Of a stretch of 64,000 nt of DNA, positions 24,723 to 29,444 are shown piece after piece. Below the pieces are notes generated by a model. It had not been told where the DNA came from. It saw only the letters and a list, made by a program, of their open reading frames with translations, and did not search any database. The translations under genes were made by a program, and so were the position numbers. The stretch is from Lentilactobacillus curieae. Its GTDB lineage: Bacteria; Bacillota; Bacilli; Lactobacillales; Lactobacillaceae. Within the stretch, counting starts at the first letter, position 1. Each line of letters begins with the position of its first letter. The DNA lies in contig NZ_CP018906.1 of NCBI RefSeq assembly GCF_000785105.2, forward strand, positions 1,178,001 to 1,242,000, in the 5' to 3' direction.

Positions 24723-25268
24723 CAAAAATTCGATGCGACTGAACCTTATACGGTTCTCCATACTGACGTGACACAGGTTAAATTAGCTAATAATCAATGG
24801 GGATATATTTCGGCAGTAATTGATGAAGCTAGTAATGAAGTTGTTTCCCTTAATGTGTCTAATCATGCCAATAAGCAGCAATTAGCCACTACATTGAGTA
24901 ATCTTCAAGCTACGATTCCTAAGGAATCAATGCCTATCTTACATTCTGATCAAGGCTGGCAATATTAACTATCGTACTATCATCAAACGTTACATAAAAT
25001 GTGGATTATACCTAGCATGTCTCGTAAGGGAAACTGCCATGATAACGCGCCAATTGAAAGCTTCTTCAATTTACTAAAAAGAGAACGATTAAACCGATCC
25101 AAGATTGAAGACTTGGATAGGCTTGAAGAAATAACTAGTCAGTACGTAAAATGGTTCAACGAAGACCGAATCTCACTAAACAAAAATGGCTTAACTCCGA
25201 TTGAATATCGGAATCAAGCCATAGCTTAAACTTTTTTAAAATGTCTAACTTTTTTGTGGCACTTCAGT
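24723..25268 (+). mobile_element. IS3-family (IS150-like) element, 5'-truncated, transposase broken by TAA
   Basis: The frame starting FDATEPYTVLHTDVTQ is the DDE integrase core of an IS3 OrfB. VLHTDVTQ and HSDQGWQY (second Asp) are followed by TAA (24966-24968, probably from CAA), then by SYYHQTL, SMSRKGNCHDNAPIESFFN (third acidic residue) and the C-terminal NEDRISLNKNGLTPIEYR. The right end shows an IS150-like terminal sequence (AACTTTTTTGTGGCACTTCA near 25247-25266). OrfA and the left end are missing, so the element is dead. Confidence 0.85.
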
Positions 25269-25408: not shown

Positions 25409-25969
25409 CTACTTGACACCTTCTTGTATACCGCTAACAAAAGATGCCTCTAGACCAAATCCAATGACCGCTTGTATCATAAAGATTAATTTATTGTTGC
25501 TGCGTATAGACTTTGCCAATTTGGGGTGATGAGATTTAATCCATTTTCCAACCTTTATTCCTGACTTATGGGTATATCCATTAACAGATACAACATTTTG
25601 AATGAATCCTGCAAGTTCGTAAAGTGTACCCCAGCTTGGTAGTGAAATAAAGCTATTTGAATATGGAGTTTTCCCGTTATTAGTTTGTGTGGCAGCATTC
25701 TTGATTTCTGTAGGGTTTACGGTGTATTCTACACCATTAATGGTAAGCTTGCTCTGACCATTATTGATTTGTGTTAAAACATCAACAATCTGATCATCTG
25801 TTAGATTCATACTGAACAATTCTTGACGTGACAGATTTGGCAAGTTTTGTTTAGAAGTGGAAACTTGTTGAAGTTGAGAGTCAGCAAATGCGGAAGAAAC
25901 TCCACCTAATGATGTTGTTGTAAGACATGCAGCGACAGAAAATACGATTAGCTTTGATTTATTCTTCAT
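25409..25969 (-). CDS. Secreted protein of unknown function (bacteriocin-like context)
   Basis: A 186-residue precursor. A Sec signal peptide (residues 1-30: KNKSK, hydrophobic core, SSAFADSQ cleavage) is followed by a polar stretch and a short conserved-looking region LSRQELFSMNLTDDQIVDVL. A C-terminal part has a basic helix (GKWIKSHHPKLAKSIRS) and a hydrophobic helix (KLIFMIQAVIGFGLEASF). The family is not recognised. It follows the small membrane protein at 25988 in one operon behind 22-bp-phased repeats. The signal peptide is homologous to that of the decayed gene at 33634-33848. A secreted antimicrobial or a signalling protein is possible. Confidence 0.65.
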   Translation of the reverse strand: MKNKSKLIVFSVAACLTTTSLGGVSSAFADSQLQQVSTSKQNLPNLSRQELFSMNLTDDQIVDVLTQINNGQSKLTINGVEYTVNPTEIKNAATQTNNGKTPYSNSFISLPSWGTLYELAGFIQNVVSVNGYTHKSGIKVGKWIKSHHPKLAKSIRSNNKLIFMIQAVIGFGLEASFVSGIQEGVK

Positions 25970-25987: not shown

Positions 25988-26263
25988 CTAAATTAATTTA
26001 AGGATTACAATTAGTATTAACATTGCTAAAAAGAATAGACTTCCCGATTTTTTAAATATGTATCCAACTTTTTGGATATTTGAATTACTCTGCTCTACGT
26101 GAATAGCATTAAATGAAATGACCGTTGCTATTAAAAAGCAGAAGAAGTATCTGAATTGGTCAACAAAATTAAAATTTAAAAAAACAAATGGGGAAACTAT
26201 AATGCTAACAATGCCAATAATAACGTAAATCCACATGTAAGTATCAAAATGCGCTTTTTTGAT
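25988..26263 (-). CDS. Small three-helix membrane protein, probable ATC start
   Basis: A ~91-residue protein with three hydrophobic segments (MWIYVIIGIVSIIVSPFVFL, FRYFFCFLIATVISF and SLFFLAMLILIVILKLI). The frame opens at TTG 26278, but that codon is part of the GGAGGT ribosome binding site (26271-26276). The optimally spaced codon is ATC at 26261-26263, giving I(M)-KKAHFDTYMW. Internal ATG (Met15 of the longer frame) lacks a ribosome binding site. It is co-transcribed with the secreted protein and may be its immunity or export partner (inference). A degenerate copy of its 5' end lies near 33930-33975. Confidence 0.6.
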   Translation of the reverse strand: MKKAHFDTYMWIYVIIGIVSIIVSPFVFLNFNFVDQFRYFFCFLIATVISFNAIHVEQSNSNIQKVGYIFKKSGSLFFLAMLILIVILKLI

Positions 26264-26311
26264 AAATATTACCTCCAAAATTCATTCGCGAACTTTTATT
26301 ATGCTACTAGT

Positions 26312-26376
26312 GTGTTGTGAAAATTATGTGAAGATGAAGTGACCATTATGTAAAAATAGAGTGACTATTTTGTGAC
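26312..26376 (-). promoter_or_regulatory. 22-bp-phased direct repeats upstream of the secreted-protein operon
   Basis: On the plus strand ATTATGTGAA (26323), ATTATGTAAA (26345) and ATTTTGTGAC (26367) recur exactly every 22 bases, and a TTGTGAA half lies at 26315. Ten-base direct repeats separated by 12 bases are the classical layout of LytTR-type response-regulator sites in bacteriocin and quorum-sensing promoters. Similar elements occur at 34011-34087. Confidence 0.7.
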
Positions 26377-26383
26377 TTTAGGA

Positions 26384-26974
26384 TTATATTCCTATACTAA
26401 AGTCGTTTAATGAGTTATCAATTTCATCTTCGGTAATTCCAATATATCTCTTGGTGATTTCTTGTGAACTATGGTTAAAGATAGCCATTAGCGTAGCAAT
26501 ATCATGAGTTTTACGATAGTAGTGATAGCCAAACGTTTTGCGGAGCGTGTGTGTGCCGAGGTCATCACGATCCATTTCTTGGCCTAATTTATCCATAATT
26601 CTATATACACCATTTACGGTTAGGTGATACCCAGGCTTTTGAGAAGGAAAGAGCCAGTCGTCATCATTCTTCCCGAAGATATATTGGTCAATCATATCTG
26701 ACAAGTTGGTTAAGTTAAGCCTGCGTTGCTTACCAGTCTTTTGCTCAATAATATACGGCTTCTTGGTGTGTCTAAACTCTCCAACCTTACGAATAACAAT
26801 ATCTGACGCACGTAAACCTGTGTTGATACCGAATAAAAAGAGCAGCAAATCACGGTCTGCATGGCGGTTTCTTGATAGGAAAAATTTTGCAGTTTCGATT
26901 GCTGATTTAGTTCTTAGTGGTTGAATGTTAATATGTAAACCCTTGTTAGTATTGTGCGGTTTATCAGTAGACAT
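26384..26974 (-). CDS. Tyrosine recombinase/integrase family protein
   Basis: A ~196-residue compact recombinase lacking the usual N-terminal SAM-like domain. The catalytic set is visible: Arg in INTGLRASDI, Lys in EQKTGKQRR, HTLRKTFGYH (H-x-x-R), His in AIFNHSSQEIT and Tyr in KRYIGI. The short form resembles plasmid and phage resolvases that resolve dimers or drive inversion. ATG 26974 has GGAG 9 bases ahead. It could have mobilised the island, but I found no clear attachment sites. Confidence 0.9.
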   Translation of the reverse strand: MSTDKPHNTNKGLHINIQPLRTKSAIETAKFFLSRNRHADRDLLLFLFGINTGLRASDIVIRKVGEFRHTKKPYIIEQKTGKQRRLNLTNLSDMIDQYIFGKNDDDWLFPSQKPGYHLTVNGVYRIMDKLGQEMDRDDLGTHTLRKTFGYHYYRKTHDIATLMAIFNHSSQEITKRYIGITEDEIDNSLNDFSIGI

Positions 26975-27011
26975 GATAATCAACTCCATTCAAAAATACT
27001 GTGCACTGTGT

Positions 27012-27245: not shown

Positions 27246-27407
27246 ACACATCACTCCAATCCGATAGTCAACGTCACCGTCTAACAGCTCTACAAATAAG
27301 ATTATATCATAACTAACAACTAATGCACGGTGTTTTTAAAAACCGTGCATTAATTAAAAATCAAAAATTTTTAGTTAATATTATACGAAAACGAAAGGAC
27401 TGTTGAT

Positions 27408-28625: not shown

Positions 28626-28662
28626 TTAGTTGTTATTAAATAAATACAAAAGGGGAAGATTT

Positions 28663-29010
28663 ATGATGAGATTGAAAGCAATTATGTTTACAGCGTTAAG
28701 TTGTTTATTTTTTACAAGCTTTAATGTCAGCGCTAACGCAATTAAGCATGAACAAATTACTAATAGTGAGGGACAGACACATCAATTAGCAACTAATCCA
28801 GCAGAACAGGAAAATCAGATTAGAAGTAATGGTAATACGACCACACATGTTAAATCTGTAGTACATAAAAGGACAGTAATTGTTAACCCTGCTGATAGGG
28901 TCAGCAAAAAGTCCTTGGTAGAGAAGCACACGGTAACGACTAAACCGCGCTATTCAAAATTGCAATTAAAGAAATTAATGGAGAAGCAGTTTGCCAGCAA
29001 AAAAAGATGA
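28663..29010 (+). CDS. Secreted Lys-rich protein of unknown function
   Basis: A 115-residue precursor with a Sec signal peptide (FTALSCLFFTSFNVSANA, cleavage after ANA) and a basic mature part with repeated VHKRTVIV and VEKHTVTT motifs ending in KQFASKKR. AGGGGAAG precedes two adjacent ATGs (28663 and 28666). The stop overlaps the ATGATG of the next gene, directly after an A7 run. Without the one-base frame difference, the two would form a single secreted protein with a continuous Lys/Gln-rich helix. Function unknown. Confidence 0.65.
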   Translation: MMRLKAIMFTALSCLFFTSFNVSANAIKHEQITNSEGQTHQLATNPAEQENQIRSNGNTTTHVKSVVHKRTVIVNPADRVSKKSLVEKHTVTTKPRYSKLQLKKLMEKQFASKKR

Positions 29011-29444
29011 TGGCGCAAGATAAAGTAAAACGGCAACGTGAGAATGTTAAACTGCGTGCCAAAGAACAGGCCAATGAAAAGTCTTTAGCTCAGGCAGCAG
29101 CTCATGCTAAACAAGTTAAAAAGGCAGAAGCCTTAAAGCAAGAAAGCAATAATTCAGTAACAGCCACTAGTCAACCAACAAATGAGCAAAGTACAGCCGA
29201 TAGTCAAACTCAGCCGGCAACACAAGAACAACAACCACAAATGACTGATAGAGAAAAGAAAAATCAAGAAGCGCAAGATGCAAATACTAGATTACAACCT
29301 TGGTACACTGGAACTGCTGCGGCAGCTAACGTGGGACAACTCGCTTATTATGTCACAGGTTCAGTATCGAACGTAGTCGGTCAGGGTACAGCTATTGTTA
29401 ATTCTATAACCGGAGTTATTTCAGCCATTAGAAGTCTAATTTAA
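29007..29444 (+). CDS. Coiled-coil protein with hydrophobic C-terminus, possible -1-frame extension of the preceding gene
   Basis: 145 residues without any signal peptide: a highly charged helical segment (residues 1-45), a Gln/Thr/Ser-rich linker (50-90) and a 45-residue glycine-containing hydrophobic tail (GTAAAANVGQLAYYVTGSVS, then GTAIVNSITGVISAIRSLI). The tail looks membrane-active. Because the other cassette proteins are secreted and this one lacks a leader, it is probably delivered as a fusion with the preceding signal-peptide ORF through frameshifting or slippage at the A7 run, or else the cassette has suffered a one-base deletion. The family is not recognised. Confidence 0.55.
   Translation: MMAQDKVKRQRENVKLRAKEQANEKSLAQAAAHAKQVKKAEALKQESNNSVTATSQPTNEQSTADSQTQPATQEQQPQMTDREKKNQEAQDANTRLQPWYTGTAAAANVGQLAYYVTGSVSNVVGQGTAIVNSITGVISAIRSLI

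Follow-up and report, generated by a model that had tools for sequence, protein, structure and literature searches.

An 11-bp repeat array upstream of a membrane-protein/secreted-protein operon in Lentilactobacillus curieae: a probable site for a PieR-like response regulator

In Listeria monocytogenes, the PieRS system is described as controlling PrsA1, PrsA2, and four further products, one of them with a signal peptide (PMC12234432). Small RNAs stand under two-component regulators both in Listeria, where the multicopy UCCC sRNAs of the LhrC type are controlled by LisR (PMC4132741), and in streptococci, where the CiaR box TTTAAG-N5-TTTAAG precedes the csRNAs (PMC8186281). The PhoP regulator of Mycobacterium tuberculosis binds TCACAGC repeats as a tandem dimer with a strict 4-bp spacer and a period of 11, and trimer and tetramer binding are described as well (PMC4832192). 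In bacteriocin regulation, the PlnC/D repeat is given as TACGTTAAT (PMC2714321). Here, a repeat array from L. curieae is set beside these systems; it lies in a window of 64,000 nucleotides (contig NZ_CP018906.1, positions 1,178,001 to 1,242,000), the whole stretch of DNA that was analyzed. The repeat and its statistics, the absence of a LytTR match, and the way the box recurs and accompanies a PieS-like kinase were all computed. The array itself is an already known kind of promoter element; it leads, through co-occurrence in 397 genomes, to a testable DNA-box assignment for a little-studied two-component system.

Array, promoter, and operon

Lag counts, simulations, and Tandem Repeats Finder identified a six-unit array with an 11-bp period on the minus strand at 26312..26377. 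Its TTCACA-type hexamers are located at 26371-26376, 26360-26365, 26349-26354, 26338-26343, 26327-26332, and 26316-26321, and read on the minus strand as GTCACA, GTCACT, TTTACA, GTCACT, TTCACA, and TTCACA with N5 between them, giving the unit pattern TTCACA/GTCACW/TTTACA-N5. The six 11-bp units are GTGTTGTGAAA, ATTATGTGAAG, ATGAAGTGACC, ATTATGTAAAA, ATAGAGTGACT, and ATTTTGTGACT; five of the six are of the TCAC type, only two carry exact TTCACA, and one carries TTTACA, as in the pst boxes described below. Identity inside the array peaks at lags 11 (33/55), 22 (30/44), and 33 (20/33), and the column score of the six units is 49 of 66. Within the window this score is reached only by eight overlapping registers of the array (starts 26309-26316), and first-order Markov simulations of 64 kb (30 runs) gave 45 at most; the array is the strongest 11-bp periodicity of the window and stands above 30 of 30 simulations. 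The ten-mers quoted in the first-pass annotation do recur at 22-bp steps between 26312 and 26376, and at this place Tandem Repeats Finder calls a period of 22 bp as well as one of 11 bp, but the unit itself is 11 bp according to the lag counts and the column score, and it is the alternation of TTATGTGA-like and GAAGTGAC-like units that makes the repeat look 22 bp long. The array thus consists of direct repeats with an 11-bp period, as in OmpR/PhoB-type sites.

On the minus strand, a candidate −10 box TAGCAT (26301..26306) is located 9 bp past the last array unit, and CATAAT (26298-26303), 12 bp past the unit, is an alternative candidate. A scan for the sigma-70 consensus listed no minus-strand promoter at the array. 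The 9-bp link of TAGCAT is the same as in the sRNA-type promoters treated below and in one pst promoter of the same genome, where TTTACG-N5-TTTACA is followed at 22 bp by another TTTACA, itself 9 bp ahead of TATATT; the other pst promoter carries TTTACA-N5-TTTACA. One of the two pst operons is divergent from a gene for an OmpR-type regulator with a degenerate-looking receiver (L007:1492-2271). At 14 of 36 distinct sites, drawn from 30 loci of the genus and 20 of the own genome and including many homologous sRNA-type promoters that are not independent, TANNNT stands 48 bp from the start of the TTCACA-N5-TTCACA pair, a distance of four units and 9 bp; the second-highest count, 6 of 36, falls in the same phase one unit nearer.

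The array stands upstream of two minus-strand genes. The first (25988..26278) encodes a small membrane protein of 96 aa as listed, recognized by its hydrophobic segments, with the ribosome-binding site GGAGG at 26272..26276 read from the sequence. In the start region of this gene (26261-26278), the strong GGAGG is not followed by a standard start codon where one would be expected; ATC lies 8 nt past GGAGG, and the listed TTG overlaps the ribosome-binding site. The second gene (25409..25969) encodes a 186-aa protein with a signal peptide-like start, the presumed regulated product. For neither protein did any Pfam family score above its cut-off. The 186-aa protein has matches in two of 396 other genomes of the family, one over just 58 residues (E 2.7e-4), and searches of genome contigs and of plasmids confirmed no relatives. 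The sole clear operon homologue (L046, 26% identity) has the same order, with a gene for a small membrane protein ahead of the one for the secreted protein. No array was seen there by eye, and the array is therefore not a shared part of the gene pair.

A tyrosine recombinase (PF00589, 1.2e-21) is encoded on the minus strand at 26384..26989. A distance of 7 bp separates its stop codon (26384-26386) from the last array hexamer (26376), the array lying 3' of the gene, and we judged the recombinase to be a neighbor of the array rather than a partner. Among 23 other genomes of the genus it has one close relative, with 75% identity. An inverted repeat upstream of the recombinase (27318-27355, TAATGCACGGT/ACCGTGCATTA-like) is a possible recombination site, as are inverted repeats of the CCGTGCGTTA type that precede the 75% identical gene in another species (L051, about 2100-2290). 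Elsewhere in the window, overlapping ORFs of 126 and 145 aa (28630-29444) may represent one secreted-protein gene split by a frameshift, and near the array (24768-25229) two ORFs look by eye like fragments of an IS3-type transposase.

Recurrence of the box and the PieS-like kinase

The proposal of the first-pass annotation that the array may be one among several promoter sites of its kind is borne out by genome scans, which found further copies. Allowing up to three mismatches, the three-unit pattern has 72 matches in the own genome, compared with 45 for the reversed pattern; up to one mismatch leaves five, namely four registers of the array and position 433718, and without mismatch the array is the sole place. 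Exact TTCACA-N5-TTCACA pairs occur seven times in the own genome against zero in the control. With up to one mismatch, 566 pairs were found in 24 genomes of the genus against 274 for the reversed control, which was exceeded in 22 of the 24. Scanning the own genome for spaced TTCAC yielded 237 matches versus 174 in the control, with no clear peak by eye among the matches listed. Apart from the array, 26 of the 28 own-genome sites with up to one mismatch were inspected (872429 and 873566, the latter inside a gene, were left out), the gene names near them being our reading of the sequences. Tandem sRNA-like units (433.7-434.2 kb) follow three of the 26. Another five (318481, 320339, 325078 and 325182, and 1061469) stand 74-217 bp away from the start of one of four genes whose products begin with a signal peptide-like sequence. 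Seven are inside genes, and the rest adjoin various genes, including spx-like, XRE-like, and acetyltransferase-like ones. For three of the four surface-protein genes carrying a box, its orientation is opposite to that of the gene.

The sRNA-like units are about 100 nt long (L041:5815-5918, with relatives in L054, L055, L060, L061, L072, and L081) and some genomes have them in tandem. Aligned, eight distinct copies from seven genomes of the genus (G000, G249 twice, G304, G316, G355, G372, and G380) have a mean column identity of 91%; they share a terminal T run and three C-rich (UCCCC) runs, each between what appear by eye to be short complementary stretches. The pair was found upstream of all eight copies with a loose pattern, partly by construction, since the loci were fetched for holding the pair. 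No Rfam family reached its gathering score in the own locus or in five other loci; the nearest miss was csRNA (E 0.044, 32.2 bits compared with a gathering score of 57) in the neighboring unit at L041 6093-6191. The units, a spin-off of the analysis, make up a conserved family of C-rich, sRNA-like sequences that shares its box with the array. Among the papers listed by literature searches, which took in few subscription journals, no title or start of an abstract describes a TTCACA box or such sRNAs in lactobacilli.

In the genome, seven OmpR/PhoB-type DNA-binding domains (Trans_reg_C) score above cut-off. For the regulator P0002 (about 8.37-9.11 kb of the same genome) and the kinase P0001 (6.90-8.37 kb), the best NCBIfam models are PieR (294.7, cut-off 450) and PieS (439, cut-off 850), and as both scores are below the cut-offs, the two are named PieR-like and PieS-like only. 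The closest solved homologues of the PieR-like regulator by sequence are MtrA and RegX3, with M. tuberculosis PhoP further down at 113.8 bits. WalR is also encoded (YycF model 429.5 bits, cut-off 340), and we call the other systems of the genome LisR-, CiaR-, and PhoP-like, with regard to their gene neighborhood.

For 397 genomes of the bacterial family, the number of exact pairs was compared with the presence of the PieS-like kinase, which was matched in 288 of them (E up to 1e-50). The 282 genomes with the kinase contain 494 pairs versus 107 in the control, six genomes with a weak match contain 5 versus 7, and the 109 genomes counted as lacking it, being those unnamed among the P0001 matches (20 explicitly printed as negative), contain 33 versus 40. 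When labels were shuffled within the seven genera with both states, the observed sum was reached in none of 20,000 shuffles, whether the six g18 genomes with kinase E > 1e-80 were taken as weak or as positive, although this test is too optimistic because related genomes share gene losses. Some genera with the kinase are off pattern: g6 has 7 pairs in 22 genomes and g37 has 3 in 24 (controls 0), g10 (4 genomes), g35 (2), and g17, g27, g31, and g40 (1 each) have none, and the eight genomes of g33 have 7 pairs against 9 in the control.

The PieS-like and the CiaH-like kinase were both set against the pair counts, the latter (P0009) being present in 201 of 360 genomes (taken as handles G000-G359). 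Genomes with both kinases (113) contain 252 pairs versus 65 in the control, or 2.23 and 0.58 per genome, and those with the PieS-like kinase alone (135) contain 157 versus 29, or 1.16 and 0.21. With the CiaH-like kinase alone (82 genomes) the counts are 32 and 33, with neither (24 genomes) 1 and 3, and with a weak PieS match (6 genomes) 5 and 7. In these counts, the excess of exact pairs over the control is confined to genomes with a PieS-like kinase, a strong association over the 397 genomes that the off-pattern genera do not share, and the CiaH-like kinase does not explain it. CiaR was rejected as the binder on the absence of an excess where the CiaH-like kinase occurs alone.

Possible functions of the array

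The array is probably a multi-dimer activator site of an OmpR/PhoB-type regulator, most likely the PieR-like regulator of this genome. Each 22 bp would accommodate one head-to-tail dimer on two 11-bp half-sites, and three such dimers could be lined up along the six units. At 9 bp from the −10 box, the last unit would take the place of the −35 element and recruit polymerase, and an active PieS-like kinase would in this way bring about transcription of the membrane-protein/secreted-protein operon. We infer binding, activation, and the identity of the regulator at the array, as well as the signal, the last by analogy with Listeria PieRS. Evidence against the PieR-like regulator comes from the off-pattern genera, the array-free operon homologue, the absence of a minus-strand sigma-70 match, the boxes opposite to their genes, and the presence of exact TTCACA in only two of the six units. 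A response regulator-type site upstream of a secreted-protein operon, as the first-pass annotation had proposed, is supported, but its assignment to the LytTR/pheromone class is not.

The assignment to the LytTR class (AgrA/PlnC/ComE), as a site of a pheromone-induced bacteriocin regulon, was suggested by ten-mers at 22-bp spacing and a secreted-protein gene downstream. LytTR sites consist of two repeats of 9-10 bp, spaced by about 21-22 bp, with no shorter period, a layout from which the array departs by its 11-bp period, and its units, compared by eye, are unlike TACGTTAAT. Moreover, a search for the LytTR domain had no match in this single-contig genome (0/1), while the same search was positive in five of 14 control genomes. 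The first-pass annotation had staked its reading on there being either further copies or a LytTR regulator; copies exist, no such regulator was found, and a LytTR site is exceedingly unlikely, the reading being largely refuted for this genome, barring a plasmid-borne or unrecognized regulator gene. A less improbable, though still unlikely, alternative retains the same architecture with a PhoP-like (phosphate) or WalR-like regulator as the binder. WalR and PhoP favor TTTACA-type boxes, the pst promoters of the genome carry TTTACA-type 11-bp pairs, WalR is encoded, and TTTACA is one of the array units; however, five of the six units are of the TCAC type, and TTCACA pairs are not above the control in genomes scored as lacking a PieS-like kinase.

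Two further readings involve the adjacent recombinase gene. That the array drives a plus-strand transcript antisense to this gene would be consistent with the promoter-like TTGTGA-17-TATACT over the far end of the array (26370-26398, plus strand), with none listed on the minus strand, and with the three surface genes whose boxes read against the gene direction. However, the sRNA-type promoters transcribe the TTCACA strand with a 9-bp link, which here points to the minus strand, and the consensus scan gave 15 such matches in 1.8 kb with 8.0 expected, so a single match says little; we consider antisense transcription very unlikely. Very unlikely, too, are accessory or arm-binding sites of the recombinase itself, for which the 7 bp between array and stop codon would speak. 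The 75% identical relative has no array downstream, which, from this one relative, disfavors such sites; inverted repeats upstream of both genes (TGCACGGT and CCGTGCGTTA type) are the likelier site, and the motif is found elsewhere in the genome too. ResD/SrrA was considered for the TGTGAA contained in ResD boxes and set aside. The C-rich sRNAs initially pointed to a LisR box, which was rejected since a different repeat is seen by eye in the LhrC promoters.

Beyond the PieR-like regulator at this one array, we see an even chance that a PieRS-like system of lactobacilli commands, via TTCACA-N5 arrays, an envelope regulon of surface and secreted proteins and tandem ~100-nt sRNAs with three UCCCC loops, into which the rare operon of the window would be wired by its six-unit array.

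Comparison with known systems

Multicopy UCCC sRNAs, here sRNA-like units under putative two-component control, are shared with LisR/LhrC (PMC4132741). The LhrC promoters differ in repeating, by eye, TTCTAAT or TCATGAAA-type sequences in the fetched loci showing the promoter side, and a search of the own genome for LhrC gave no match. As with the CiaR box, 11-bp direct hexamer repeats stand before several sRNA genes (PMC8186281), but the hexamer differs, and a CiaH-like kinase alone is not tied to the TTCACA pair. M. tuberculosis PhoP, a distant homologue, offers a structural precedent only.

For both the regulator and the kinase studied here, the best NCBIfam models are those of Listeria PieRS, albeit with scores below the cut-offs. 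The available text on PieRS does not contain the terms binding site, consensus, promoter, repeat, or TTCACA, and among the members named in its regulon section there is no sRNA and one predicted cytoplasmic PTS protein (PMC12234432). In that section the regulon is otherwise secreted or membrane associated, as is the case here, comprising PrsA1, PrsA2, a signal-peptide protein, and an ABC transporter with its permease (PMC12234432).
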